From NCBI RefSeq assembly GCF_009936275.1, contig NZ_AP019797.1:2029890-2093889 (forward strand): a DNA stretch of 64,000 nucleotides, in the 5' to 3' direction. The stretch comes from Rhodothermus marinus (GTDB lineage Bacteria; Bacteroidota; Rhodothermia; Rhodothermales; Rhodothermaceae). The notes beneath the pieces were generated by a model that was not told the origin of the DNA, ran no database searches, and worked only from the letters and a program-made list of their open reading frames with translations. The position numbers and the translations under genes are program-made. Below, in pieces: positions 7,390-22,247 of this stretch (positions within the stretch are counted from its first letter, which is position 1; every line of letters starts with the position of its first letter).

Positions 7390-8703
7390 ATGGAAACACG
7401 TCGCACGGTCGAAGTGAAACGTCCGGTTCGTTTTTTCCTGCTGCTGTTGCTTGTGGGCGCTGCGGTGATGGCGCTGTGGTATGTCCGTAGCCGCCCAATC
7501 GACCCGCCTTCCGCCTCCAGGCCTGGTCGGTCTGCGGCCTTTCGCCCGGTCACCATCGTGTACGACGCCTTCGGCATCGAAGAAGGACCCTTTGAACGTA
7601 GCACGCACCGCATCCGGCGGGGCGAGACGTTCGCCGACATCCTGACGCGCTACGACGTACCCTATGCCGACGTGCTGGCGCTGGCCGAAGCGGCGCGCGA
7701 CGTGTTCAACGTGCGTCGCCTGCAGGCCGGCCGTCCGCTTCACGTTTACCGCGACTCCACGGGCGCCCGCGTGTTCGTCTATCAGCCCGATCCCGTGCGA
7801 TACGTGGTGTTCGACCTGCGCGAGCCGGTGCGGGTCTATACGGGTCGGCGGGCCGTCGAGCGCGTACTGCGCACCGCACAGGGCGTCATCGAAAGCTCCC
7901 TGTACGAGACGCTTCAGGCTGCCGACGCCGATCCGGAACTGGCCGTTCGGCTTTCGGAGATTTTCGCCTGGCAGATCGACTTTTACCGCATTCAGCGTGG
8001 CGACCGCTTCGTGGCCCTCTACGAAGAGACGCTGATCGACGGTGAGCCGGTAGGCATCGAACGGGTGCTGGCCGCCCGCTTTCAGCACATGGGCGAGGAC
8101 TTCTACGCGTTTCGCTTCGAGCACGACGGCGGCGTGGACTACTACGACGAGGCCGGCCGCAACCTGCGCAAGGCTTTCCTGAAAGCGCCGCTCCGCTACA
8201 GCCGCATCACCTCGCGCTACAGCCTGCGCCGCTTCCACCCCGTTCAGAAACGCTACAAGCCCCACCTGGGCACCGACTATGCCGCTCCGGCCGGCACGCC
8301 CGTCTATGCCACCGGTGACGGCGTGGTGATCGAGGCCGGCTACAATCAGTACAACGGCTATTACGTCAAAATCCGGCACAATGCGGTCTACACGACCGGC
8401 TACCTGCACTTTTCGCGCATTGCGAAGGGCATCCGGCCCGGCGTGCGCGTGCGCCAGGGCCAGGTGATCGGCTACGTGGGCAGCACGGGGCTGGCCACGG
8501 GACCGCACGTGTGCTACCGCTTCTGGAAAAACGGCCGCCAGGTGGATCCTCTGCGCGAGCAGTTGCCCCCCGGCGAGCCCGTGCCCGATTCGCTGCGCGA
8601 CGCCTTTTTCGCACTGCGCGACCGTCTGATGCCCCGCCTGCTCTTCGAGCCGCCGGCTTATGCCGAGGCGAGCGCAGCAGTCGAAGGCGACGTTACATTG
8701 TAA
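7390..8703 (+). CDS. Membrane-anchored M23 metallopeptidase with OapA/LysM-like region
   Basis: A 437-residue murein endopeptidase candidate. A basic N-terminus is followed by one membrane segment (about residues 15-33, FFLLLLLVGAAVMALW). Residues ~65-115 look LysM/OapA-like (HRIRRGETFADIL). The C-terminal third is the M23 lysostaphin-type domain, with the zinc motif HLGTDYAAPAGTPV, the second metal histidine in GYLHFSRI and the turn GSTGLATGPHVCYRF. This is the MepM-type architecture that trims peptidoglycan cross-links during growth. Its 3' end overlaps the convergent crtI gene by 46 bases on the opposite strand. Confidence 0.85.
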   Translation: METRRTVEVKRPVRFFLLLLLVGAAVMALWYVRSRPIDPPSASRPGRSAAFRPVTIVYDAFGIEEGPFERSTHRIRRGETFADILTRYDVPYADVLALAEAARDVFNVRRLQAGRPLHVYRDSTGARVFVYQPDPVRYVVFDLREPVRVYTGRRAVERVLRTAQGVIESSLYETLQAADADPELAVRLSEIFAWQIDFYRIQRGDRFVALYEETLIDGEPVGIERVLAARFQHMGEDFYAFRFEHDGGVDYYDEAGRNLRKAFLKAPLRYSRITSRYSLRRFHPVQKRYKPHLGTDYAAPAGTPVYATGDGVVIEAGYNQYNGYYVKIRHNAVYTTGYLHFSRIAKGIRPGVRVRQGQVIGYVGSTGLATGPHVCYRFWKNGRQVDPLREQLPPGEPVPDSLRDAFFALRDRLMPRLLFEPPAYAEASAAVEGDVTL

Positions 8704-10175
8704 TCCTGCGCGATGGCCCAGGCGGTCGCCTCGGCCGAGAGCACCACGCCCGGCAGTCCGGCGCCGGGATGCGTGCCTGCTCCGACCAGATAGAGTCCCC
8801 GGATGTCTTCGCTCCGGTTGTGCGGCCGGAAGTATGCGGTCTGGGTAAGGCGTGGTTCGATACTGAAGGCGCTACCGTAAGGCGCATTCAAATGCCGGGC
8901 AAAATCCTCGGGCGTAAAGTAGTGGCACACTTCCAGATTCTCCTGTAAACCTTCCAGTCCCCAGGCCTCCAGGAATTCGAGTAAGCGCTCGGCATAGCGC
9001 GGTGCTTCTTCAGACCAGTTGATCGACGCCTGCAAATGCGGCACGGGTGCCAGCACATAGAGGCTTTCACAACCGGGTGGCGCCATCGTGGGGTCGGTAC
9101 GCGTGGGCGCATGCAGATAGAGGCTGAAATCCGGCGCCAGCACCTTGCGTTCGAAGATGTCTTCGATCAGCTCGCGATACCGCGGTGAGAGCATCAACGT
9201 GTGATGGAGCAGTTGTGGGTAGGTGCGCCTGACGCCCAGATACAGCAGAAAGCAACTCATGCTGTAATGCAGTCGCGCGATGCGCCGATCGGTCCAGCGC
9301 CGGCGCCAGGCCGGATCGACCAGATACTGGTAGGTGTAGCCCGGATCTGCATTGCTCACCACCAGCTCGGCCGGATGAAACCCGTCGGCGGCCTCTACCC
9401 CGACCGCCTTTCCCTTCTGCACGACAATCCGCTGCACCGGTGTACCGGTATGGATACGCCCCCCGATTTCCATAAACAGACGGGCCATTGCCTCCACCAG
9501 GCTGTACATCCCTCCCCGGGCAAACCAGACGCCCTCTTCCCGTTCCAGATAAGGGATCATGATGTAGACGGCCGGTGCCCGGAACGGATTGCCCCCGATA
9601 AAAAGCGGATGAAAGCTGTAGAGAAAATGGTGGCGAAAATCTTCGAAATAGCGGCTGGCAAATCGGGCGACGGGCTGAATCGCACCGAGGCGAAGCGCAC
9701 GGGGCAGAAAAGCCAGCAGTTTCCCCAGTGTATCGAACGGCCGGGCTCCCAGTCCTTCCCTGATGACGGCTTCATAGATGGGCCGCGTCGCCTCCATGAA
9801 ACGATCGTAACGGGCGGCATCCTGCGGGTTGAAGCGGGCCATCTGGGCACGCATCCGCTCCCGATCGGCCGTATAGTCGAGATACGTACCGTCGTGAAAG
9901 TACACCCGATAAAAAGGATCGAGCGGGACAAGCTCGACGTAGTCTTCAAGCGGTCGCCCGGCCGCGGCAAACAGACGCCGCAGGATCGAAGGCGCTGTAA
10001 TGAGACTGGGGCCCATGTCGAACGTATAGCCGCGATCTCGCAGCTGATAGGCTCGGCCGCCCACTTTTTCTCGCTTTTCCAGCAATGTCGTCTTGAAGCC
10101 CATGGCCTGCAGGCGAATGGCAACGGCCAGACCTCCGAATCCACTTCCGATCACAATGGCACGATGTTCTTTCAT
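8658..10175 (-). CDS. crtI: Phytoene desaturase CrtI
   Basis: A 505-residue FAD-dependent desaturase that converts phytoene toward lycopene. The N-terminal dinucleotide fold IGSGFGGLAVAIRL and the following LLEKREKVGGRAY are typical, and the C-terminal GAGTHPGAGLPGVVLS is the CrtI carotenoid-binding signature. It is the last gene of the leftward pigment operon and its ATG overlaps the stop of the acyltransferase gene (ATGA). Within this family CrtI and the 3,4-desaturase CrtD are hard to separate by eye; the G-A-G-T-H-P-G-A-G-L-P-G block favours phytoene desaturase. Confidence 0.92.
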   Translation of the reverse strand: MKEHRAIVIGSGFGGLAVAIRLQAMGFKTTLLEKREKVGGRAYQLRDRGYTFDMGPSLITAPSILRRLFAAAGRPLEDYVELVPLDPFYRVYFHDGTYLDYTADRERMRAQMARFNPQDAARYDRFMEATRPIYEAVIREGLGARPFDTLGKLLAFLPRALRLGAIQPVARFASRYFEDFRHHFLYSFHPLFIGGNPFRAPAVYIMIPYLEREEGVWFARGGMYSLVEAMARLFMEIGGRIHTGTPVQRIVVQKGKAVGVEAADGFHPAELVVSNADPGYTYQYLVDPAWRRRWTDRRIARLHYSMSCFLLYLGVRRTYPQLLHHTLMLSPRYRELIEDIFERKVLAPDFSLYLHAPTRTDPTMAPPGCESLYVLAPVPHLQASINWSEEAPRYAERLLEFLEAWGLEGLQENLEVCHYFTPEDFARHLNAPYGSAFSIEPRLTQTAYFRPHNRSEDIRGLYLVGAGTHPGAGLPGVVLSAEATAWAIAQDYNVTSPSTAALASA

Positions 10176-10873
10176 GTCCGGATCTGATTCTGTGCGGTAT
10201 GTTCAGCCAAAAACTCCTCCCATTTTTCGGCGGCATGCTCACCGACGCGGCTCAGCCATCCCTGTAGCCGGTCCAGGAGCAATGTGGTAGCCGTTTCGAG
10301 CGCTTCGGGTGAGGGATCGCAGGCCGTGTCGATCGGCGCGCCCATCACCACGAAAGCCGTGGGAGCCGGATGCCGCAAGGGCTCCAGATGAATCGCCGTC
10401 GGGATGATCCATCCGGGGTGTATGGCCCGGACCATGAGCCGCACACCGGGCCGAAAGTCAAGCGGCCGGGCAAAAGACGGGCGGATCCGCCCCTGCGGGA
10501 AAAAAGCCAGCCAGTAAGGCCGACGGCGGCGCTCCTGGTACAGGAAACGAAACACCCTGCGAAGGGAAGCCGGCCGTCCCGGTTCAAGGCCCAGGGCGCC
10601 CATCCATCGAAACCAGGGGAAGCGCCTTCGTTGCGATGCCAGCATGACGGTATAAAGGGAACGCCCTGCTCCCTGGCGACGGTGCACCTCACGCAGCAGA
10701 AAGCCGTCCCACCAGCTCGTGTGATTCGCGCACAGCAACACGGCGCGTTCGTCGTCAGGCAACCCGAGCGGTCCTGCAACGAGGATGCGGTGCAGGCACA
10801 ACCGCCGATAGGGTGCCAACATCCCGAAAAAAATCGTTACCAACGAAGGGCACCAGTAAGCAGGGCGACTCAT
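10172..10873 (-). CDS. PlsC-like acyltransferase, candidate carotenoid-glycoside acylase (CruD-like role)
   Basis: This 233-residue protein has the lysophospholipid-acyltransferase HX4D motif in NHTSWWDG near residues 50-57. The third block, normally FPEGTRS, reads FPQGRIRPS, so the glutamate that contacts the glycerol phosphate is replaced by glutamine. It lies between the hypothetical gene and crtI in the pigment operon with ATGA overlaps on both sides. Rhodothermus/Salinibacter carotenoids are acylated glycosides, so acylation of the sugar on the carotenoid is the inferred role; a phospholipid acyltransferase is the alternative. A partner glycosyltransferase was not seen in the window. Confidence 0.72.
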   Translation of the reverse strand: MSRPAYWCPSLVTIFFGMLAPYRRLCLHRILVAGPLGLPDDERAVLLCANHTSWWDGFLLREVHRRQGAGRSLYTVMLASQRRRFPWFRWMGALGLEPGRPASLRRVFRFLYQERRRRPYWLAFFPQGRIRPSFARPLDFRPGVRLMVRAIHPGWIIPTAIHLEPLRHPAPTAFVVMGAPIDTACDPSPEALETATTLLLDRLQGWLSRVGEHAAEKWEEFLAEHTAQNQIRT

Positions 10874-11427
10874 GGCAGGCGCGCTTCGCTGCGTCGGAGT
10901 TCACGATACAACGTCTGCAACCGCATCCGCTCCACCTGATCGAGGGGCGCATTGGCCAGCAGGAATTCCACCATCATGCGCCGATAGGTATCCGGCAGCG
11001 ATGCCTCCCCGGCCAGCAACTGCTGCGTCAGCCGGCGCATGTCTTCGCGGGCCATCTCTTTGCGCCCGAAGAAAAAAGGCAGGTAGTAAATGCTCAGCAG
11101 TCGCAGGCATCGAATTTCCATATGATCGGGATGGGCCGCCACGAGGCTGTCCAGAACCGGAAGCCCCTCCCGGAGGTAGCGCATTTTGGTCTGCGGCCAG
11201 AAAGCGTAGCGCGCTTTTAAAATGGTCAGCGCCGCCTGGTAAGCGTTGGCCAGCGTTTCAGGCAAACGTGCGCGTTGCGTTTCCAGGAAAGCCATCCCTG
11301 CCGCAATAGCCTTCTCGTCTTCGGCACTGCGCAGGTAATAGCGACGCACGCATTCGATGGGTTCGGTTACAGCTTCGCACGTAACCGAACCGGTCCACAG
11401 CAACAGCACAAACAAACCGAGCATCAT
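10870..11427 (-). CDS. Hypothetical secreted protein in the carotenoid operon
   Basis: A 185-residue protein that I do not recognise. The first ~18 residues (MLGLFVLLLWTGSVTC) look like a signal sequence. The rest is mostly alpha-helical and rich in Leu, Arg and Ala, reminiscent of helical repeats (AIAAGMAFLETQRARL, AYQAALTILKARYAFW). Both its start and its stop overlap neighbouring genes by ATGA, so it is translationally locked between the CruF-CrtB fusion and the acyltransferase. That conservation of coupling suggests a role in pigment assembly, export or membrane placement, but no function can be assigned. Confidence 0.8.
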   Translation of the reverse strand: MMLGLFVLLLWTGSVTCEAVTEPIECVRRYYLRSAEDEKAIAAGMAFLETQRARLPETLANAYQAALTILKARYAFWPQTKMRYLREGLPVLDSLVAAHPDHMEIRCLRLLSIYYLPFFFGRKEMAREDMRRLTQQLLAGEASLPDTYRRMMVEFLLANAPLDQVERMRLQTLYRELRRSEARLP

Positions 11428-13151
11428 AGGGCCTGCATACCTGTCATCAAAACCGCCCGGCGCAGACGACGCAGTGCAGCCACCGAAAGACCGATTTTTT
11501 CAGGGAGCGTCGTGTAGGCGCGACGCGTCAGATTGTCGTAGTGGTTCTGTCGAAGCACTTCATGAATCCCCCGATAGACCTCGGCGGCCACGGCAATGGC
11601 ACTGCGAACGCGCGGTGGCAGTGCCGGAATGGCCTCCCAGGCGGCCTCATAGTCACGTTCGGCCCGCTGCATGAGTTCTTCCAGCAGCGCCACATAGGAA
11701 GGATCGAGCACGCCGGTCTGCTGCATACGTAGCAGATCCGCGAGGTCCAGTCCATAGGCGGCCATCCGATCCGCGGGCAGATAGAGGCGATCACGCCGCA
11801 GATCTTCTCCCACGTCGCGCACGATGTTCGTGTACTGCATGGCGCGGCCGAGCGCTTCGGCGCGCGCAAGCAATGGGGGCGTGCACACCCCCATCAAATA
11901 GCACATCCAGACACCTACCGTCGAACCCACGCGGTAGGCATAGCGATCCAGTTCCTCATAGGAAGCCACTCGGACCGGTCCGATGTCCTGGCGCACCCCG
12001 TCCAGCAGCGCCTGCACGACCTCCCAGCGCAATCCGGCCAGGCGCGAGCGTTGCATAAGCCGATCGAGCCAGGGGAGTCCGGAGGGGCGTCCTTCGTAGG
12101 CCATCCATACCTGCCGTTGCCACCGATCCAGGCGCTTCTGCAGCACCTCGGGCGCAACCTGCGTCGATGCGCCGTCTACCAGATCGTCCGTAAGCCGACA
12201 GAAACCATAGAGCAGGACAACTTCCTGACGAAGGTCCTTTGGAAACAGCCGCGCGGCAAAAGAAAACGAACGGGCATGTGCTGCGAAAAAGCGCGTACCA
12301 TCTTCCTCGAAGGCATCCCGCACGGGAAGCGTGCCCGTTGTATCCATGCGCGGCCGTCTGCGCCGGATCAGCCAGACGACACTTCCCGCCAGGCCCAGTG
12401 CGGCGACCGTAGCAGCGACGGCCCCCCAGAGACCAGCCACAGCCACCATACCGAGCGGCATCAGCAACACCGCTCCATAGAACACCGTCATCCACTGCAC
12501 GCTGAACGCTTCGGTCCAGCGAAACGCGCGCATCGCTTCCAGTACACCCATAATCACCAGCCCGGTCAGCGCCCATCCGGCCAGATTGATCAGCGGCATC
12601 CCGTAATAAGGGCCGGTCTCCCCCCAGGTCCAGTACGACGTCAGGTAGCTCATGGCCGGATCCAGACTCAGATCCCAGGTCACCAGCAGATAGGTTGCCA
12701 GCAGCAGCCGGGCCAGCCACCACCGCTGCTCCGAAAAGGCGGCGCGGGCCAGCACGTAACAGGGCACCGCCATCACAAACCAGCTGAGCGGAATCAGATA
12801 GGGCACGCGGCCGAACCACTTTCCTCCGAGCAGGGTGGTGTAGCTGTAGGTCCCGAAAGGCACGCCATACGTGGTCCCCAGCGTCTCGCTGAGCAGGCTC
12901 ACGCCGTAAACGACCAGCCCGGCCGGCACCCAGCGCCCGCCGGTACGACGACCCATGTACACGAACAGGACAAGGGCCGTCAGCAGCACATGCAACCGCG
13001 CAAAGAGCGTAAAAGACCGGGCATAGAACGCGGTAAGCTCCGGCCAGCGGGCAAGCAATTCCGGGTGGCGTCCGAAAATCCCGAAGCCGGCGATGGCAAT
13101 GATCGTGAAACCATACAACCCGTAAAGCAGCAGCCGATCGAAGCGGCTCAT
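11424..13151 (-). CDS. cruF-crtB: CruF-CrtB fusion: carotenoid 1',2'-hydratase plus phytoene synthase
   Basis: A 575-residue two-domain protein. Residues ~1-265 carry several membrane helices and text typical of the CruF/DUF422 hydratases (LSETLGTTYGVPFGTYSYT, WDLSLDPAMSYL). Residues ~280-575 form a complete phytoene synthase, with the first Asp-rich motif in CRLTDDLVDG and the second in NIVRDVGEDL, which bind Mg-diphosphate. The soluble synthase makes phytoene from two geranylgeranyl diphosphates and the membrane part hydrates the psi end of a later intermediate, so the fusion places the first and a late step in one polypeptide at the membrane. ATG 13151-13149 overlaps the carH stop. Confidence 0.9.
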   Translation of the reverse strand: MSRFDRLLLYGLYGFTIIAIAGFGIFGRHPELLARWPELTAFYARSFTLFARLHVLLTALVLFVYMGRRTGGRWVPAGLVVYGVSLLSETLGTTYGVPFGTYSYTTLLGGKWFGRVPYLIPLSWFVMAVPCYVLARAAFSEQRWWLARLLLATYLLVTWDLSLDPAMSYLTSYWTWGETGPYYGMPLINLAGWALTGLVIMGVLEAMRAFRWTEAFSVQWMTVFYGAVLLMPLGMVAVAGLWGAVAATVAALGLAGSVVWLIRRRRPRMDTTGTLPVRDAFEEDGTRFFAAHARSFSFAARLFPKDLRQEVVLLYGFCRLTDDLVDGASTQVAPEVLQKRLDRWQRQVWMAYEGRPSGLPWLDRLMQRSRLAGLRWEVVQALLDGVRQDIGPVRVASYEELDRYAYRVGSTVGVWMCYLMGVCTPPLLARAEALGRAMQYTNIVRDVGEDLRRDRLYLPADRMAAYGLDLADLLRMQQTGVLDPSYVALLEELMQRAERDYEAAWEAIPALPPRVRSAIAVAAEVYRGIHEVLRQNHYDNLTRRAYTTLPEKIGLSVAALRRLRRAVLMTGMQAL

Positions 13152-14035
13152 GCGTGCGGATGCGTCGTGTAGTCGCGAAGCCATCTTGCAAAATCGCTCA
13201 GTTTCTGAAAAATATGAATGCTGCGGAAAGGCCCGTGCAGACCCCCTACCTCGGCAGCTCCCCTGCCTCCCAGCACCAGCGTGTAGGGGCGTGTTTCATC
13301 GTAGAGCTGCCCCAGAACGCGCAGCGTGCGCAGCACGTCGGCACGCGTCAGCGGCGGCACGAACGAAAGCGCCACCAGTTCAGCCCGCCATTGCTGCTGT
13401 TGCCAGCCAACCTCTTCAGGCGGGACATCTGCCCCGAGATAGAGCACCCGCCAGCCCAGCTCTTCCAGAATCAGCCGCACCAGAAGTGCCCCCAGCTCAT
13501 GATGCGCACTTTCCGGACACGCCACCAGCGCAAAGGGCACCTCCCGCTCGGCCTCGGGCCGCCTCAGCGCGTAAAGCGCATCGATCAGCATGTGGGTCAT
13601 GCGGTGTTCTTCGCCAATGCCTACCCGCCCCGCCTCCCAGTCGACACCGATTCGTCCTACCAGTGGCCCGAGCAACAGATCTCCCAGCGCCGCAACCGAA
13701 ACGCCGCGTCGATACAGAAAAACGACAAGCCGGATCAGCCGACCACTTTGCCCTTCCCGCAGCCACCGGTACATCAAAGCGATCAGATGCTCCGGGATGA
13801 CCCCCTGGCGAAGCTGCTGCAATCCTTCCCACACCTGTGCTTCGTACGGAGCAAACTTCAACAATGCGATCGCTAATTGCTGCTGCCGGGCAAAGGCAAG
13901 GAGCGTTTCAAGAGCAAAGCGTCGATGACCTCCCGGCGTGCGCTCCGCCTTCAGCTTTCCCGCACGACTCCATCGCTTGATCGATGACACGTGCACTTCG
14001 AGCACCTCGGCCGCTTCTACAGACGAAAGCTCCAT
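13148..14035 (-). CDS. carH: CarH/LitR-type MerR regulator with adenosylcobalamin-binding photosensor
   Basis: A 295-residue regulator. Residues 1-60 are a MerR-type winged helix (SSVEAAEVLEVHVSSIKRW ... TPGGHRRF). A four-helix cap follows, containing the light-sensing Wx9EH motif (Trp133, Glu143, His144). The Rossmann B12-binding domain has His179 in AHHELG as the expected lower axial ligand; the residue two before it is Ala where Glu/Asp is usual. In known CarH proteins the dark AdoCbl-bound tetramer represses carotenoid genes and light disassembles it. It is the first gene of the leftward operon and borders the shared control region 14036-14128, so autoregulation and control of both operons are likely. 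Start chosen at ATG 14035; the open frame upstream lacks a better codon. Confidence 0.92.
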   Translation of the reverse strand: MELSSVEAAEVLEVHVSSIKRWSRAGKLKAERTPGGHRRFALETLLAFARQQQLAIALLKFAPYEAQVWEGLQQLRQGVIPEHLIALMYRWLREGQSGRLIRLVVFLYRRGVSVAALGDLLLGPLVGRIGVDWEAGRVGIGEEHRMTHMLIDALYALRRPEAEREVPFALVACPESAHHELGALLVRLILEELGWRVLYLGADVPPEEVGWQQQQWRAELVALSFVPPLTRADVLRTLRVLGQLYDETRPYTLVLGGRGAAEVGGLHGPFRSIHIFQKLSDFARWLRDYTTHPHA

Positions 14036-14063
14036 TCCGATCTTTATGCCATGATGATCGAAT

Positions 14064-14092
14064 TTGACTTTTGTATTGTCGGTTCTTATTTT
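14064..14092 (+). promoter_or_regulatory. Sigma-70-like promoter for the SDR-photolyase operon
   Basis: TTGACT at 14064-14069 is followed after exactly 17 bases by TATTTT at 14087-14092. The SDR start codon lies 37 bases downstream. The -10 element overlaps the one of the opposing carH promoter. Read by eye only. Confidence 0.6.
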
Positions 14093-14116
14093 AATAAAAA
14101 AGATCATCAAAAGCAA
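14088..14116 (-). promoter_or_regulatory. Sigma-70-like promoter for the carH-cruF/crtB operon
   Basis: On the minus strand TTGCTT (14116-14111) is followed after 17 bases by TAAAAT (14093-14088), about 52 bases before the carH start. The -10 hexamers of the two divergent promoters overlap by five bases, so RNA polymerase should occupy only one at a time. The flank also holds GATCATCAA ... TTGATC, a possible operator half-site pair. Confidence 0.55.
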
Positions 14117-14128
14117 TTGATCTGTTTC

Positions 14129-14866
14129 ATGGACGGATGCGTTGTTGTTTTTGGCGCGACGGGAGGGATTGGAAGGGTGCTGGTAGACGAAGTGCATCGA
14201 CGCGGCCTCGGCCCCATGGTGCTGGTAGGACGGCGCGCCGATCCTCTCTACGAACTGGCCACCCGTTACGGGGCAACAGCCGTCGTGGCCGACGCGCGCA
14301 AGCCTGAAGCGGTCCAGCGCGTTTTCGAAACAGCCCGGCAACACCACGGGCGTGTGGCCGGCGTGGCGCACCTGGTCGGCTCGCTCCTGCTCAAGTCGCT
14401 GGTAGCCACGCGGGACGAGGAAATGGAAGAGGTGCTGGCACAAAACTTCTGGAGTGCTTTCTACGTGTTGCGCGAAAGCGTCCGGGCCATGATGAAAGAC
14501 GGCGGGAGCATCGTACTGACGGCTTCGGCGGTGGCCATGCAGGGCCTGCCCAACCATGAAGCCATCGCGGCGGCCAAGTCGGCCGTCATGGGACTGGCGC
14601 GCGCTGCCGCCGCCTCTTACGCGCGCCGGGGCATCCGTATCAATGTCGTGGCCCCGGGCCTGACCGAAACGCCCATGACGGCCTCGCTTTTCGCCAGCCA
14701 GCAGGCTGTTGAGCGTTCGCTACGCTACCATGCCCTTGGCCGGCTCGGCAAACCCGAGGATATCGCCCGCGCGATTGCCTTTTTACTGAGCCCCGATGCT
14801 TCCTGGATTACCGGCCAGGTGCTGGCCGTCGATGGGGGGCTATCAAGTCTTAAAGTGCTGGACTGA
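14129..14866 (+). CDS. Short-chain dehydrogenase/reductase-like protein lacking the catalytic tyrosine
   Basis: A 245-residue Rossmann protein. The cofactor loop GATGGIGRV is at residues ~8-16 and the C-terminal segment ITGQVLAVDGG is standard for SDRs. The catalytic serine is present in LTASAVAMQG, but the YxxxK motif reads IAAAK, so the proton-donating Tyr is Ile while the Lys is retained. The protein may therefore bind NAD(P) without normal reductase activity, or use another residue. It heads the rightward operon, five bases before the photolyase gene. The substrate is unknown. ATG 14129 is preferred to the upstream frame because it begins directly at the nucleotide-binding strand. Confidence 0.85.
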   Translation: MDGCVVVFGATGGIGRVLVDEVHRRGLGPMVLVGRRADPLYELATRYGATAVVADARKPEAVQRVFETARQHHGRVAGVAHLVGSLLLKSLVATRDEEMEEVLAQNFWSAFYVLRESVRAMMKDGGSIVLTASAVAMQGLPNHEAIAAAKSAVMGLARAAAASYARRGIRINVVAPGLTETPMTASLFASQQAVERSLRYHALGRLGKPEDIARAIAFLLSPDASWITGQVLAVDGGLSSLKVLD

Positions 14867-14870
14867 CGCC

Positions 14871-16331
14871 ATGCCGATCACCCTCCTGCTTTTTACGCCG
14901 GGCGACCTGCGCCTGGCCGAAAATCCGGCGCTCGATGCGGCGCTCCGCACAGGCCATCCCATCGTACCGCTTTTCATCTGGCCGCGCCGAGGTGAGGGAT
15001 TCGAGCGTCCCGGTGCTGCCCGACGCTGGTGGTTGCATCATAGCCTGGCTGCGCTCGATGCCGAGCTGCAGCGCAGAGGGAGTCGGCTTATCCTGCGCGT
15101 TGCTGAAGATCCGGCCGAGGCGCTCATTCAGCTTCTGGAGACCCTGCCGGTGGCCACCCTCTGCTGGAATCTTCCGTTGCTTCCTCACGAGCGGCGCCTG
15201 GCCTCGAGCATTGCCCCGGTGCTGCGCCGTCGCTCCATCCGTCTGATCGAAACCGTTGGCCGGACGCTTCTCGATCCGGAGCAACTGCGAACGCAGAGCG
15301 GCGACGTCTATCGCGTGTTTACGCCGTTCTGGAAGGCGTTGCGGCGACAGTACATCCCGCCGACCCCATTTCTACCGCCCGCGCGCATCCCTGCCCCTTC
15401 TTTCTGGCCCGAATCGGACACCCTGGAATCGCTCCAGTTACTGCCCCGACCCGACTGGGCCAGCGAGACTATTGCCCAGCACTGGTTGCCCGGCGAAGCA
15501 GCCGCCTGGAGCACACTCCGAACGTTTCTGGCGTACGGCCTTCCCCACTACGATCGGGCACGCGACCGACTCGACCAGGAGGTCACCTCGAAGCTTTCGC
15601 CGTATCTGGCCAACGGCGAACTCAGCCCCCACCTGCTCTGGCGTGTCGTGGGCGAAGCCCAGCGCGCAGGCATTTCGTCGAAGGCCGTGGAGGCCTTCCG
15701 TCGCCAGCTCGCCTGGCGGGAGTTCGGCTACTATTTGCTGTATCACTTTCCCGAGACGATGCACCGGCCGCTGCGTCCTGAATGGTCCGACTTTCCCTGG
15801 CGCACGGAGGCCCCCGAACTCGAAGCCTGGCAACGCGGCCGCACCGGCATTCCGGTCATCGACGCAGCCATGCGCCAGCTCTGGCAGAGTGGCTGGATGC
15901 ACAACCGGGCGCGGCTGCTGGTCGCATCGCTGCTGACGAAAAATCTGCGCATTCACTGGCTGCGCGGCGCCGAGTGGTTCTGGGATACGCTCGTCGATGC
16001 GGACCTGGCCAACAACACGCTGGGATGGCAATGGACAGCCGGATGCGGTGCCGACGCTGCGCCTTACTTTCGCATCTTCAATCCAGTCCTACAAAGCAAG
16101 AAATTCGACCCGGAAGGCCGCTACATCCGTCGCTGGCTCCCGGAACTGGATCGCCTGCCGGCTCCCTGCATCCACGCCCCCTGGGAGGCACCCTCCTGTG
16201 CCGAGATGCTGCGCGAGATCGGCTACCCTTCGCCCATCGTTTCGCTTATGGACAGCCGCGAAGAGGCGCTGGCCCTGTACGAAAACTGGAAAGCTTCCAT
16301 CAAAAATCGCTATGACATCCATTCGCAATGA
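14871..16331 (+). CDS. phrB: Deoxyribodipyrimidine photolyase / cryptochrome family, class I
   Basis: A 486-residue flavoprotein that uses blue light to split pyrimidine dimers. The N-terminal alpha/beta antenna domain starts LLLFTPGDLRLAENPAL. The C-terminal FAD domain shows FRRQLAWREFGYYLL, TGIPVIDAAMRQL, MHNRARLLVASLLTK and the signature DADLANNTLGWQWTAGCG. The DxD/ADLA-NN arrangement and the length match repair-type class I photolyases. It belongs to the rightward operon under the CarH-flanked promoter, which fits light induction. The next gene starts 20 bases before its end. Confidence 0.94.
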   Translation: MPITLLLFTPGDLRLAENPALDAALRTGHPIVPLFIWPRRGEGFERPGAARRWWLHHSLAALDAELQRRGSRLILRVAEDPAEALIQLLETLPVATLCWNLPLLPHERRLASSIAPVLRRRSIRLIETVGRTLLDPEQLRTQSGDVYRVFTPFWKALRRQYIPPTPFLPPARIPAPSFWPESDTLESLQLLPRPDWASETIAQHWLPGEAAAWSTLRTFLAYGLPHYDRARDRLDQEVTSKLSPYLANGELSPHLLWRVVGEAQRAGISSKAVEAFRRQLAWREFGYYLLYHFPETMHRPLRPEWSDFPWRTEAPELEAWQRGRTGIPVIDAAMRQLWQSGWMHNRARLLVASLLTKNLRIHWLRGAEWFWDTLVDADLANNTLGWQWTAGCGADAAPYFRIFNPVLQSKKFDPEGRYIRRWLPELDRLPAPCIHAPWEAPSCAEMLREIGYPSPIVSLMDSREEALALYENWKASIKNRYDIHSQ

Positions 16332-17592
16332 TCCGGAAGTAATCGTTGTCGGTGCCGGACTGGCCGGACTGCGCTGTGCCGGACTGCTTCATGCGCAGGG
16401 GATCGATGTCCTGCTGCTCGAACGCCAGGATCAGGTAGGGGGCCGCGTGCGCACCGACCAGATCGATGGCTTCCAACTGGATCGTGGCTTTCAGGTGCTG
16501 CAAACGGCCTATCCGGCCGCGCAACGCGCCTTCGATTACGAAGCGCTGGACCTTCGCCCTTTCCCGGCCGGCGCGTACGTGTTTACAGAAGGGTGCTTTC
16601 AGCCTTTCTTCGATCCGCTCCGCCATCCCGAGCACCTGTGGGGTACGCTGCGCAGTGGTCTTTTCGGTGCCCGGGATCTATTTGGTCTGCTAAAACTGGG
16701 ACGCCGACTGGAGACCTTCTCGATGGAGACAGCCGAATCTGACGATGCTGAGGCCGATCGAACCACCACGCGAACCCTGCTGGAGACACTGGGCTTTTCC
16801 GAGGCATTCATCCGGCGTTTCTGGCAACCGTTTCTGCGTGGCGTCTTTCTCGAAACGACCCTGGAGACGCGTGCCAGCAAGTTTTTCTTCGTGATGAAAG
16901 CTTTTCGCGAAGGTGAGGCGGCGTTGCCCGCCCGAGGCATGCAGGCCCTGCCCGACCAGCTCGCCGCGCGGCTGCCGGCCGAAACCATCCGAACCGGCTG
17001 CACTGTGACGCGCGTCGAGCCGGACGGCACCGTGCAGCTTCAGGACGGCACGACATTACGCCCACGCATTACGGTGCTGGCCGTCGATGCAGCCGCAATG
17101 ATCTGGCTGTGGCCAGACTGGAAGCTGGACGTGCGCTGGAATCAGAGCACGACCGTTTATTTCGCCGCCGACAGCGAACCGCCGGACGTACCCGATGCGC
17201 TGCTGCTCGAAGGCGACCCGGACGCCGGCCCCGTGGCAACGGCCGCAGCGCTCCACCGCATAGCGCCCTCTTACGCGCCTGCCGGCTCCTTCCTGCTGGC
17301 TGCCACAATGCCTGGATTCCTGCCTGATCGGCCCGCCATGGCTTTTGAAGTAGCCCTTCCCCAGCTTCGCCGCTGGTTCGGGCCGACAGTGAACCGATGG
17401 CAAGCGCTGGCCTGTTATCCGATCCGCCATGCTCTGCCCGCAGAGCCCGCCGGCTGGCAACCTCCCCGCCGGTATCAACTCAGCGATAAGGTATGGTGCT
17501 GTGGCGATTATTTTGGACCGGCTTCCATTCAGGGAGCCCTCTGGCATGCCGAACGTGTAGCCGAGCAGATTCTTGCGCAATATTATGGCTGA
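16312..17592 (+). CDS. FAD-dependent oxidoreductase, amine-oxidase/CrtD-like superfamily
   Basis: A 426-residue flavoprotein beginning with the dinucleotide-binding motif VVGAGLAGLRCAGLL and LLLERQDQVGGRVRTD, and ending with YFGPASIQGALWHAERVAEQIL, as in amine-oxidase/protoporphyrinogen-oxidase-type enzymes. Such genes often sit beside photolyases in this phylum. Being inside the carotenoid cluster it might be the 3',4'-desaturase (CrtD role) that the pathway needs, but no residue proves this. It overlaps the photolyase gene by 20 bases and the next gene by 8. Confidence 0.78.
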   Translation: MTSIRNDPEVIVVGAGLAGLRCAGLLHAQGIDVLLLERQDQVGGRVRTDQIDGFQLDRGFQVLQTAYPAAQRAFDYEALDLRPFPAGAYVFTEGCFQPFFDPLRHPEHLWGTLRSGLFGARDLFGLLKLGRRLETFSMETAESDDAEADRTTTRTLLETLGFSEAFIRRFWQPFLRGVFLETTLETRASKFFFVMKAFREGEAALPARGMQALPDQLAARLPAETIRTGCTVTRVEPDGTVQLQDGTTLRPRITVLAVDAAAMIWLWPDWKLDVRWNQSTTVYFAADSEPPDVPDALLLEGDPDAGPVATAAALHRIAPSYAPAGSFLLAATMPGFLPDRPAMAFEVALPQLRRWFGPTVNRWQALACYPIRHALPAEPAGWQPPRRYQLSDKVWCCGDYFGPASIQGALWHAERVAEQILAQYYG

Positions 17593-19042
17593 TATGGCTG
17601 AAATGCGCGTGCTGGTTACCGGCGCAACGGGTTATGTGGGCGGTCGGTTGATCCCGAGACTGCTCGAAGCCGGTTATCACGTCCGTGCCATGGCACGTGA
17701 CCGGCGCCGCCTGGAAGGACGCCCCTGGTCCGACCGCATCGAGATCGTCGAGGCCGACGTGCTACGCCCCGAAACACTTCCGGACGCCGTAAGCGGCATC
17801 CATACCGTATTTTATCTGATCCACGCGCTGGGTGGCGGCGATGATTTTATGCAGAAAGAGCAGGCCGGCGCCCGTAATCTTGCAGAGGCGGCTGCGCGTG
17901 CCGGAGTCCGCCATATCATCTATCTGGGAGGCCTACAGCCTCCTCAGCCTGTTTCGCGCCATCTGGAAAGTCGCCGGCTTACGGGCGAGGCCCTTCGAAG
18001 CGGTCCGGTTCCTGTTACAGAGCTGCGCGCCGGGATCATTCTGGGGTCGGGAAGTCTGTCCTTCGAACTGATTCGTTACCTGACAGAACGCCTGCCTGTG
18101 ATGATCACGCCGCGCTGGGTGAAAATCCCCACACAGCCGATCGCTATCCGCAACGTACTGGATTATCTGGTGGCGGCGTTGCAACACCCGCCGGAGCACT
18201 CCCGGATTGTGGATATCGGGGGACCGGACGTGCTCACCTACGCCGATCTGTTTCGCCTTTATGCCCGGCTGCGCGGTCTGCGGCGCTGGATTGTTCCTGT
18301 TCCAGTACTCTCGCCCCGACTCTCCTCGTACTGGATCGGGCTGGTCACGCCCCTGCCTGCGCGCATCGCACGCAAGTTGATCGACAGCCTTAAAGCGCCG
18401 ACGGTATGCCGCGACGATCTGGCCCGCCGGCTTTTTCCTGAAGTAACAACGCTTTCCGCCGAAGCCGCCATGCGACTGGCCCTTCAGCGTCTCGACGCCG
18501 GCCATGTCGAAACCATCTGGTTCGGGGCCTATTCCTCGGGGGATGCGGAGCGACTTACCACCCATTTAGAGGACCGCGAAGGCCTGCTGCGCGACAGCTA
18601 CTCCATCTGGATAGCGGCTGCGCCCTCCGCCGTCTTTGCTTACCTCAAGCGGCTGGGAGGATCCCGAGGATGGCCCTACGCCAACGGACTCTGGCGCCTG
18701 CGTGGCGTGCTGGATCGGCTGGTGGGCGGCATTGGTTATCGTCGCGGCCGTCGTCATCCGGAGGAATTGTACGCAGGCGATGCGGTTGATTTCTGGCGGG
18801 TCGAAGCGCTCGAGCCCGAGCGTCGTCTCCTGCTCCGCGCCGAAATGAAAGTGCCGGGACGTGCCTGGCTCCAGTTCGTCGTCCAACCGGAAGGGAAAGG
18901 GACCCGCTTGATCCAGCAGGCGCTTTTCGAGCCGCGCGGTCTGGCGGGTCTGCTCTACTGGTACAGCATCTATCCGCTCCATCGCCTCGTCTTTCGGGGC
19001 ATGCTCCGCGCCATCAAACAACAGGTAGAAACCAGCACGTAG
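17585..19042 (+). CDS. NmrA-like NAD(P)-binding domain fused to DUF2867 (SRPBCC-like)
   Basis: A 485-residue fusion. Residues ~7-290 are an atypical SDR ([16 protein letters not shown], then HIIYLGGLQ), which binds NAD(P) without the usual active site. Residues ~330-485 match DUF2867, a lipid-binding START-like fold ([20 protein letters not shown] ... [16 protein letters not shown]). Proteins of this fusion are usually annotated YbjT-like; their function is unknown. I chose ATG 17585 over the upstream TTG at 17573. Its position between two redox enzymes of the pigment operon suggests a carotenoid- or quinone-related role, as inference. Confidence 0.82.
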
Positions 19043-19046
19043 CCTC

Positions 19047-20579
19047 ATGCCAGACACCGATGTCATCGTTGTAGGAAGCGGGCACAATGCGCTGGTGGCC
19101 GCCGCCTATCTGGCCCGAAGCGGCCGGCGCGTGATGGTCTTCGAACGCCGAAGCCATGTGGGCGGCGCCGTTTCCACCGTGGAACTGGTGCCGGGCTATC
19201 GTTTCGACCTTGGAGGTAGCGCCCACATTCTCATTCGTCTGACGCCTGTCGTCGAGGAACTGGAGCTGGAGCGCTACGGCCTCGCGTACCTTGAAATCGA
19301 CCCGCTTTTCGTGGCCCCTTTCGAAGACGGCGAGACGCTTTTCATTTATCGCGATCTGGAGCGTACGGCCGCACTGCTCGAAGCGCATCTTCCCGGAGAA
19401 GGGGAAGCCTACGTGCGTTTCTGTAATCACTGGCTACCGTTTGCCGAAGCGGTATGCGAAACGTTCCTGCGCCCGCCGACGCCCTGGTCGATGGTGCGTG
19501 CGTTCAGCAGGCGGCGTCTGCCGAACTGGCGCCAGACGCTTCCACGCATTCTCAAACCGTTCGCACAGATTCTGGACGAATCATTTCGTTCCAAAAAGGT
19601 AAAGGCGCTGCTGGGCTGGATGGCGGCTCAATCAGGACCACCTCCGGGAGAACCGCTCAGCGCTCCGTTTCTGCTGTGGCATCCCCTCTATCATCGAGGC
19701 GGCATTGCCCGGCCACGAGGCGGATCGGGCATGCTGTCGGTAGCTCTGGCGCGATGCATCGTGGATCACGGGGGACTGGTTTACACCGACACGCCGGTCC
19801 GCCGCCTGCTCTATGAGCAGGGCCGCGTGACCGGGGTCGAGCTGGCCGACGGCGACCGTTATACGGCCCGCGCCGTGCTCTGCGGTACGCATCTGCTGGA
19901 AGTGATCGACCGGCTGCTTCCGATTGCCGAACTGCAGACGCTTCGGTCCCTGCTCCGCGTCGGCAACGGATTCGGCATCATGCTACGGCTGGCGCTGAAC
20001 GCACCCGTGCGTTATCGCGCCACGAACCATCCCGAGGCACGCATCGGTCTGCAATTGCTCTGCCGCTCGGTGGCACAGATCGAACGCGCCTACGGTGCCT
20101 ACCGAATGGGGCAACCGGCCTCGGATCCACCACTGGTTGCCATGACATTCAGCGCCGTGGACGATACGCTGGCGCCTCCAGGGGGCGAGGTGCTCTGGCT
20201 ATGGGGCCAGTACTTCCCCTACGAGCTGCACGGAAGCTCCTGGGATACCGAGGCGCCGCGCGTGCGCGAAATCCTGCTGCGACAATTCGAGCGCTACGCT
20301 CCCGGTACGCGTGAGCACATTGTCGGGGAACTGCTGCAGACGCCCGTCTGGCTCGAACGTGAACTGGGACTGCGCCGCGGCAACGTCATGCATCTGGAAA
20401 TGAGCCCGGATCAGATGTTCGCCCTCCGTCCTGCCTTGGGATGGTCCGGTTACCGCACGCCGATTCGCGGCCTCTATCTTACCGGAGCCAGCACGCATCC
20501 CGGTGGTGGCATCATGGGCGCCTCGGGGCGCAATGCCGCACACGTACTGCTGCACGACTTGGAACGCCGCAGCCTATGA
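19047..20579 (+). CDS. crtO: CrtO-like carotenoid oxidoreductase (candidate 4-ketolase)
   Basis: A 510-residue FAD enzyme of the CrtI/CrtO superfamily. The N-terminal fold reads [20 protein letters not shown] and [11 protein letters not shown]; the C-terminus [19 protein letters not shown] is the CrtO form rather than the CrtI form. The expected reaction is insertion of a 4-keto group on a beta-ionone ring, matching the monocyclic keto-carotenoids known from this group. It is followed by crtYcd through an ATGA overlap, so ring closure and ketolation are cotranslated. CrtD-type desaturation remains possible. Confidence 0.78.
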
Positions 20580-21328
20580 GCTACCTGTCGTTTCTAGCGC
20601 TGTTCATTGCGGTGCCGCTGCTTCTACTGCAACTTGCGCTTTACCGAAGCAACAGCCTGAAAACTTTCCGGAATCCGCACCGCGCTCTATGGCTGCTGGC
20701 TCTCATTGCGTTCGCCTACACCACCCCCTGGGATAACTATCTGGTGTATCGAGGCATCTGGAGTTATGGTCCGGACCGGGTGCTTTTTACGATCGGCTAT
20801 GTACCGATCGAAGAATATCTGTTTTTCCTGTTTCAACCGCTTCTAATAGGCAGTCTCTTTCTACTCCGAATCCCGAAGCCCGCCCCACCCCATCCGCAAC
20901 CACGCTGGCACCGGAGCCACCGGGCCGGCGTGCTGCTCTACGGGCTGCTGACCCTGCTCGGCTGGTTGGCCCTGAGCACGCCGCAGGGGCTGTACGCCGG
21001 CCTGATCCTGAGCTGGGCCGGACCTGTACTGATGGGCCAGTGGGCGATTGGCGGCTCGCTGGTACGTGCCTACCGCCGCCCCTTTCTTGAAGCGCTCCTT
21101 GCAGGCACCCTCTACCTCTGGGCCGCCGATGCCCTGGCCATCGCCGACGGAATCTGGACCATTCATCGGGCCACCAGCAGCGGGCTGCTTCTGGGAAACC
21201 TGCCCGTGGAAGAAGCGCTCTTTTTTCTGGTGACCAACCTGATGGTACTTCAGGGACTTCTTTTACTTCTTAAACCCGAAAATCACCATGACCGAAACAC
21301 CTCATCGTCTGCGCGTGGGCATCAGTAG
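20576..21328 (+). CDS. crtYcd: Lycopene cyclase, fused CrtYcd type
   Basis: A 250-residue integral membrane protein made of two homologous halves, each with about three helices and the conserved acidic element ([17 protein letters not shown] in the first half, [18 protein letters not shown] in the second). These match the CrtYc and CrtYd subunits of the heterodimeric cyclase, here joined in one chain. It forms a beta ring on lycopene; with CruF acting on the other end, a monocyclic gamma-type carotenoid results. The last 41 bases overlap the next gene in another frame. Confidence 0.9.
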
Positions 21329-22247
21329 TTGCCTGCTGGGCGAACCCGTACGCTTCAACGGCGGTCACGCCCGCGATCGCTCCCTGATCGAATTGCTCGG
21401 CCCTTTTGTCGAGTGGGTGCCCATGTGTCCTGAAGTGGCCGTGGGGATGGGCGTTCCCCGCGAGGCGGTGCGCCTAGTGGGCGACATCGAGCGTCCCCGA
21501 CTGGTGGGGTCAAACTCGGGCCGCGACTGGACCGACGCCATGCGCACCTGGAGCGAAGCCCAGGCCGAGCAGATTGCGCAAATGGATCTCGACGGCTTCA
21601 TTCTGAAAAGCCGCTCCCCTACCTGTGGCCTGTTTCGCGTGAAGGTGTACGATCAAAACGGAGTGCCTCGGAATGAAGGTCGCGGACTCTTCGCCGACGC
21701 ACTGGTCCGCCGGCTGCCTCTGCTTCCCATGGAAGAAGAGGGGCGCCTGCACGATCCGCTTCTCCGCGAAAACTTTGTCGATCGCCTGTTTGCCTATCAC
21801 CGGCTTCGCCATCTGCTCCGATCACAGCCCAGACCCGCCGACCTGGTCCGTTTCCACACGGCCCATAAACTGACGTTGCTTTCGCACAGCCCCGCCTACC
21901 TCAAGCGGCTGGGGCAGCTTGTGGCCCGCGCCGGAAGCGACGCTTTTCCTGAGATTCTGGACCGCTACGCCCGGTTGTTTATGGAAGCCATGAACCGTCC
22001 GGCCACCCGCAAAAAACACACAAACGTGCTGCAGCATCTGGCCGGTTACCTCCACGAACACCTCTCGGCCGAAGACCGTGCCGAGCTACATTCGCTGATC
22101 GAAGACTATCGGCGAGGCATGGTGCCTTTGATTGCACCACTCATTCTGCTTCGGCACCACCTCCGGCGCGCTCCGGTTCATCCCTGGGTGAAGGTGCAGG
22201 TCTATCTGGAGCCTTATCCTAAGGAGCTCATGCTGCGCAATTTCTGA
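21288..22247 (+). CDS. DUF523-DUF1722 fusion protein
   Basis: A 319-residue protein. Residues ~8-150 are DUF523 ([40 protein letters not shown]), a cysteine-rich domain; relatives act as thiouracil desulfurases with an Fe-S cluster. Residues ~185-305 are DUF1722/YbgA (LVRFHTAHKLTLLSHSP, YLHEHLSAEDRAEL). The same fusion is frequently encoded next to photolyase genes, so an accessory role in photodamage or modified-base handling is plausible but unproven. It is the last gene of the rightward operon. Confidence 0.85.
   Translation: MTETPHRLRVGISSCLLGEPVRFNGGHARDRSLIELLGPFVEWVPMCPEVAVGMGVPREAVRLVGDIERPRLVGSNSGRDWTDAMRTWSEAQAEQIAQMDLDGFILKSRSPTCGLFRVKVYDQNGVPRNEGRGLFADALVRRLPLLPMEEEGRLHDPLLRENFVDRLFAYHRLRHLLRSQPRPADLVRFHTAHKLTLLSHSPAYLKRLGQLVARAGSDAFPEILDRYARLFMEAMNRPATRKKHTNVLQHLAGYLHEHLSAEDRAELHSLIEDYRRGMVPLIAPLILLRHHLRRAPVHPWVKVQVYLEPYPKELMLRNF

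Follow-up and report, generated by a model that had tools for sequence, protein, structure and literature searches.

The window, by which we mean the whole 64,000-nucleotide stretch of Rhodothermus marinus contig NZ_AP019797.1 analyzed here, contains two divergent gene sets whose facing start codons are separated by exactly 14036-14128, a gap of 93 bp with a GC content of 30% compared to 62% across the window (Table 1). Within each set the reading frames overlap or sit within about 5 bp of each other, so that the minus and the plus genes are each likely to form an operon. The preliminary description had opposed a pigment operon to a photolyase operon. The photolyase arm is indeed present, but the clean split is not, since carotenoid genes lie on both arms, with the ketolase-like and the cyclase-domain genes sitting on the photolyase side, and the distinction is therefore too sharp. 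In addition, the minus operon opens with the gene of the regulator itself, which implies autoregulation. On the same arm, a CruF-like domain lies N-terminal to the phytoene synthase; two NCBIfam CruF models match it at 1.2e-32 and 4.1e-32, below their cut-offs, and the article on the R. marinus carotenoid cluster reports no CrtC/CruF homolog in the R. marinus genome (PMC5822342).

Table 1. Genes, predicted promoter boxes and candidate half-sites at the divergent locus (window coordinates)
Feature	Position	Strand	Remarks
Phytoene desaturase family (CrtI)	8658-10175	-	TIGR02734 2.1e-179, above cut-off
Acyltransferase	10172-10873	-	PF01553 6.4e-07
Small protein without family match	10870-11427	-	Pfam and NCBIfam
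CruF-like domain fused to phytoene synthase	11424-13184	-	PF04240 1.8e-44; PF00494 7.8e-64
Regulator, CarH-like/CtMerR-like, first minus-operon gene	13148-14035	-	HTH_17/MerR (PF12728, PF00376) and B12-binding (PF02310)
Half-site D, weakest of the four	14035-14046		score 4.5; GATC at 14039-14042; 17 bp from C
Half-site C (TGATGATCGAAT)	14052-14063		score 9.1; GATC kept in G001
-35 box TTGACT, SDR/photolyase operon	14064-14069	+	TTGACA in G002, TTGACT in G001
-10 box TATTTT, SDR/photolyase operon	14087-14092	+	17 bp from -35; predicted start about 14099
-10 box TAAAAT, regulator/pigment operon	14093-14088	-	17 bp from -35; predicted start about 14081
Half-site B (AAAAGATCATCA), within minus promoter spacer	14098-14109		score 6.1; GATC kept in G001
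-35 box TTGCTT, regulator/pigment operon	14116-14111	-	
Half-site A (AATTGATCTGTT), touches minus -35	14115-14126		score 6.7; GATC kept in G001
Short-chain dehydrogenase (SDR), first plus-operon gene	14129-14866	+	PF13561 2e-54
DNA photolyase/cryptochrome family	14871-16331	+	PF03441 2e-82; PF00875 2.5e-40
FAD-dependent amine-oxidase-like protein	16312-17592	+	PF01593 1e-36
NAD(P)-binding and DUF2867 protein	17597-19042	+	PF11066 9e-36; PF13460 7.4e-20
CrtO-like ketolase	19047-20579	+	NF045689 2.8e-93, 313 bits, below cut-off of 1000
Lycopene cyclase domain protein	20576-21328	+	TIGR03462 3.4e-40, above cut-off
Further plus-strand frame	21288-22247	+	presumably DUF523

It had been claimed that the gap carries the promoters TTGACT-17-TATTTT (plus) and TTGCTT-17-TAAAAT (minus) with -10 boxes overlapping at 14088-14092, and all of these elements are found there, the two opposite-strand -10 boxes sharing five bases. 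Transcription starts placed by a 7-bp rule from the box positions are predicted to lie 18 bp apart, and the gap as a whole fits the known class of bidirectional promoters. Both promoters depart from consensus, with the minus -35 agreeing at 3/6 positions. When matches to the hexamers are simply counted, 96 of 3000 dinucleotide shuffles of the gap contain an overlapping pair that is as good, which by that measure alone makes the pair only mildly unusual (19/3000 for the equivalent gap of G002, a genome described below). With a weighted sigma-70 matrix, an E. coli matrix employed for ranking only, the pair is reached by 1 of 400 shuffles. The same matrix was applied to a 464-kb sample of the genome (the window and 20 further stretches, 14% of the total, with crude gene calls in the sampled stretches), where 4 of 166 upstream stretches outscore the plus promoter and 8 of 166 outscore the minus one. 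The weaker member of the pair scores 9.6 in the window; among the 123 other gaps sampled, upstream or divergent, one attains at least 8.9 (9.1), and the window pair ranks best among the 124 sampled gaps. Likewise, a shuffle fraction of 0.03 or lower is obtained in 7 of 123 other gaps of this genome versus 7 of 20 regions upstream of regulator homologs. The median promoter score is 4.57 in upstream stretches versus 3.19 in convergent ones, a comparison made without A+T control, and the single highest score belongs to a convergent stretch (14.15 versus 12.88). The TTG/TA spacing survey of the 166 upstream stretches reveals a weak preference for 17 bp (8 forward versus 5 reversed). The Bacteroidetes-type TAnnTTTG box yields few matches in these stretches (6 versus 2). 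None of 721 GC-matched windows from the same loci reaches 8.9, a control that says little because only 0-9 such windows exist for the relevant A+T-rich loci. A scan of the genome contigs with a composite pattern of the gap gave no matches, and neither did the protein scan.

The regulator was found in 3 of the 7 genomes of the family search, a set drawn from a single genus. In four congeners (G003-G006), two of which are assembled in more than 200 contigs, neither the regulator nor the phytoene synthase fusion nor the photolyase has a match, as would follow from either loss or gain of the whole block. In G002 the regulator protein is 97% identical and the gap shows 5 differences over its 93 positions, including one that converts the plus -35 to TTGACA. 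In the more distant G001 (regulator 71% identical, gap of 79 bp), the -10 boxes TATATT and TATAAT overlap, in promoters that score 12.4 and 10.0; here the best minus register is shifted to GTGTCT-18-TATAAT, and the TTG-17-TAATAT form of the minus promoter is present but weak (6.9). In the syntenic cluster of G001, the NAD(P)/DUF2867 gene located between the FAD and CrtO-like genes is unmatched at E 1e-8. Comparison of the 93-bp region in relatives, an analysis proposed in the preliminary description, thus finds the overlapping -10 pair kept in both genomes. At a larger scale, 7 of the 20 regions upstream of a regulator, from three families of the order, carry overlapping -10 boxes of high score, with at least 8.9 for the weaker member (the window, G001, L037, L038, L040, L041 and L042), and the other 13 do not have a strong shared -10. 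These data support the view that two divergent promoters whose -10 boxes overlap are conserved between the operon of a B12-type regulator and a photolyase operon. The divergent partner genes vary among loci of regulator homologs. In both L040 and L042, the divergently oriented neighbor of the regulator gene resembles by eye a 6-pyruvoyl-tetrahydropterin synthase, with a weak photolyase-like match close by, and in L037, where an overlapping -10 pair is present, it resembles by eye an ECF sigma factor.

At the protein level, the regulator combines an N-terminal MerR-type HTH with a C-terminal B12-binding domain. Its previous identification as CarH needs to be revised: it obtains 61.6 bits against the cut-off of 400 of the NCBIfam CarH equivalog model NF052513, its best solved match in phmmer searches is 8JBS (E 1.2e-26, residues 4-287) with full-length Thermus CarH chains at 5e-11 to 6e-11, and the exact TnnACA of CarH operators is absent from the gap. 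A class II LitR was also considered and rejected; these proteins do not have the second, His-bearing B12-binding domain, and the PF02310 match rules against this assignment. 8JBS corresponds to CtMerR, which has been described as a light-responsive, AdoCbl-binding tetramer whose DNA-binding domain is unlike that of CarH (PMC11796333). Judging from its sequence, the regulator resembles CtMerR more closely than CarH. It displays the same domain order and B12-contact residues as CtMerR, including the conserved W-x9-EH and the ligand His. Against the signature GxxW/EH/GxxH/GxxxP, the window protein carries GVDW, EH and GADVP; SAHH replaces GxxH with the His kept, so that it reads SxxH where CtMerR has GxxH. 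The Glu-His pair, the ligand His and GxxxP are found in 21 of 21 aligned homologs. The photosensing position is Trp in 12 of them, as in the window protein, and Tyr in 9; the latter, which retain Glu-His and His, may perhaps differ in their response to light or ligand. Two cobalamin riboswitches above cut-off in the genome indicate that cobalamin is probably in use by the organism.

To locate a candidate operator, 11-bp direct repeats of exact CarH type were considered and discarded, as a search for exact TnnACA that covered both strands of the gap and 20 bp to either side gives no match in the gap and one in a margin, inside a gene. An initial motif search ended in a broad palindrome of 164-321 sites and was superseded by a capped model, a 12-base motif (AatcGATCgatT) learned from the regions upstream of 18 homologs. 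These homologs were selected from the top-scoring matches and, to avoid circularity, all lie outside the genus. In the gap of the window, this motif picks half-sites C, A and B. Together with the weaker D, they compose two inverted repeats, D/C (14035-14063), just upstream of the plus -35, and B/A (14098-14126), centered near 14112 on the minus -35. Half-sites A and B deviate from the CG core of the order. The sum of the three best motif scores is reached by 0 of 119 other gaps of this genome and by 18 of 500 shuffles of the gap; in G001, where half-site D is degenerate (1.5), the corresponding figures are 2 of 119 and 37 of 500. The block from half-site C to half-site A (67 bp) aligns without gaps between the window and G001, with 48 of 67 positions identical. 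The word GATC occurs four times in the gap, at positions 4, 21, 67 and 84, that is, with spacings of 17/46/17; four copies arise in 16 of 5000 shuffles, and in 1 of 5000 with equal outer spacings. The gap of G001 retains GATC at 3, 49 and 66 (spacings 46 and 17), three copies being reached in 19 of 5000 shuffles. In the 18 upstream regions, the core words CGATCA, CGTTCA and CGACCA, picked after inspection, appear 16, 12 and 7 times versus 2.7, 2.0 and 2.0 expected, and k-mer enrichment is suggestive yet noisy. A search for paired GATC half-sites in the whole genome returns 39 matches when strands are counted separately; three fall on the two places in this gap, and the rest are mostly G+C-rich by eye.

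The arrangement of these half-sites recurs across homologs. Spacing played no part in the training of the motif; nevertheless, 13 of 18 training loci contain half-sites 17-19 bp apart, in 22 pairs, where 200 rounds of shuffling give a mean of 0.4 and a maximum of 3 loci. Half-sites 61-64 bp apart are present in 12 of 18, in 25 pairs, compared to a mean of 0.3 and a maximum of 2 loci after shuffling. In the 22 closely spaced training pairs, the left element is wwwCGWTCAww and the right one its mirror image, with CG in 21/22 left and 22/22 right elements, and each pair is therefore an inverted repeat. Among 14 held-out loci, 5 show the 17-19 bp spacing, in 7 pairs that all measure 18 bp, compared to a maximum of 2 after shuffling. 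The 61-64 bp spacing is seen in 2 of them (3 pairs), a number of loci reached in 1 of 200 shuffles. Four of the seven held-out pairs are weak evidence: two, in L012, share sites with the training locus L042, a close relative, and two, in L027, are produced by consecutive 9-bp direct repeats. The cleaner cases are L015, L025 and L026. The regulator loci share ancestry, and L040-L042 are close relatives, so that locus counts are not independent. L033, from another family, displays exactly 17/46/17, as does the window. The strongest single result comes from scoring the complete four-site layout: the window reaches 25.3 and G001 23.4, neither of which served for training, and the next best layout in the sampled 464 kb (14%) of this genome stops at 6.5. 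Training loci range from 5.7 to 40.6, with at least 19.9 in 11 of 18 and less than 15 in 7 of 18. The position of the promoter relative to the repeats is variable: in L038 and L040-L042 a half-site pair encloses the shared -10, and in the window the shared -10 lies between the pairs, which indicates that the promoter/operator arrangement is not fixed. L041 and L042 carry three half-site pairs in register (18/44/18/44/18), with a period of about 62 bp. In 17 loci from relatives outside the order (L091-L107), the 61-64 bp spacing was not found; 7 of 17 contain a AAACGTACA-like half-site as 9-bp direct repeats and 7 of 17 no site. Such direct repeats, which also occur inside the order in L027, would represent a different operator design within the same family of regulators.

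Considering all these observations, the reading that we regard as probable is that of a bidirectional sigma-70-type promoter embedded in an operator of two inverted repeats, at which a CtMerR-like B12 repressor shuts both operons in the dark. In darkness, the AdoCbl-bound regulator would occupy both the D/C and the B/A repeats. Occupancy of B/A would cover the minus -35, part of the minus spacer and the start region of the plus promoter, and occupancy of D/C would abut the plus -35 and overlie the minus leader; the bound complex would thereby keep polymerase off both directions. Light would break the cobalt-carbon bond and release the regulator, allowing both operons to start together. As its gene is the first of the minus operon, the regulator would also limit its own synthesis. 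The distance of 63 bp between the two inverted repeats amounts to about six helical turns, placing the two repeats on the same side of the DNA, an arrangement that would suit a tetramer holding both. As a tentative extension, which we consider possible but less likely than not, CtMerR-type photoreceptors throughout the order might use inverted repeats every 62-63 bp (six turns, on one helical face), with a tetramer or chain clamping two of them and folding or wrapping the promoter, so that release by one photon opens both directions.

Other readings of the locus have to be weighed. The regulator might be a sensor of B12 or another metabolite, or an activator, instead of a repressor released by light. 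The MerR protein SoxR activates one side of a bidirectional promoter and blocks the other (PMC12825309), and the key Trp is replaced by Tyr in part of the aligned homologs; nevertheless, the window protein carries the Trp, Glu-His and His, its nearest solved relative CtMerR is light-responsive (PMC11796333), the spacers are 17 bp long, unlike the mis-spaced ones that MerR activators correct, and the center of the B/A repeat falls on the minus -35, outside the spacer, all of which make this alternative unlikely. It might also be argued that a single promoter is real and the other a by-product of an A+T-rich, symmetric -10, as suggested by the hexamer count, the 3/6 match of the minus -35 and the change of its best register in G001. 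This we judge quite improbable given that an operon is faced in both directions, that so few upstream stretches outscore either promoter, and that the pair recurs in relatives. Finally, competition between polymerases as the switch itself, whereby the shared -10 admits a single polymerase and a rise of one operon lowers the other, agrees with the five-base overlap and with the decrease of the opposite E. coli transcript upon strengthening of one -35 (except for bdcR), but is likewise quite improbable because basal activity was too low at all five E. coli promoters tested (PMC12825309), both window promoters depart from consensus, and opposition would be counter-productive with pigment genes on both arms. 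The earlier proposal that polymerase can open only one promoter at a time is sound on steric grounds. As a means of control, competition is probably secondary: the low basal activity of the five E. coli bidirectional promoters tested, together with the blocking of both RNAs by AcrR at one such promoter, makes common repression likelier (PMC12825309).

Both parent kinds, bidirectional promoters and B12-dependent light repressors, are already known. The operator layout described here and a B12 regulator at a shared -10 were not found in a literature search covering the top results among open PMC papers. For the CtMerR class, the DNA site is described only as an alternative to that of CarH in the literature consulted, and the half-sites reported here provide a testable candidate operator for this class of B12 photoreceptors. 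Similarly, bidirectional promoters have hardly been studied according to the authors of PMC12825309, and the present locus places a CtMerR-like B12 regulator on one of them. The six-turn spacing of the inverted repeats leads to a helical-phasing prediction that would separate looping or wrapping from plain blocking. If the proposed control is correct, the region could serve engineering as a compact light switch that acts in two directions.

Several known systems share part of these features. For the R. marinus carotenoid cluster, a shared regulatory region has already been published, with 4 + 7 genes counted as compared to the 5 + 7 counted here (PMC5822342); the words MerR, photolyase and promoter do not occur in the main text of that article. 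As in class I CarH/LitR systems (Thermus, Bacillus, Myxococcus), a B12-type repressor gene adjoins carotenoid genes. In CarH operators, 11-bp nnnnTnnACAn repeats follow one another in tandem and are in some cases accompanied by degenerate copies, and some myxobacterial operators of CarH type are expected to govern divergent promoters (PMC9304148). The window differs from this class in that the gap has no exact TnnACA and the regulator falls far under the cut-off of the CarH model. Class II LitR proteins (PplR1/PmlR2) recognize TGTACA-N12-TGTACA, with half-sites 18 bp apart, and PmlR2 has a pair of bipartite sites, the first covering the -35 and the second located between the start and the ATG, which constitutes a precedent for the two candidate bipartite sites of the window (PMC9758184). 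Unlike the window regulator, these proteins retain no more of the B12 region than its four-helix part, and they act with different half-site letters at a promoter of one direction. With regard to the promoter itself, start distances in E. coli bidirectional promoters are about 10, 18 or 23 bp, 18 being the commonest, and in shared -10 promoters such as PacrA/acrR the -10 boxes overlap on opposite strands as they do in the window (PMC12825309). PacrA/acrR is likewise flanked on one side by the gene of its regulator, and AcrR represses both RNAs (PMC12825309). In contrast to promoters of the PacrA/acrR type, the window presents two multi-gene operons of one likely regulon, an operator of spaced inverted repeats and a regulator of the B12 type, with starts that are predicted.
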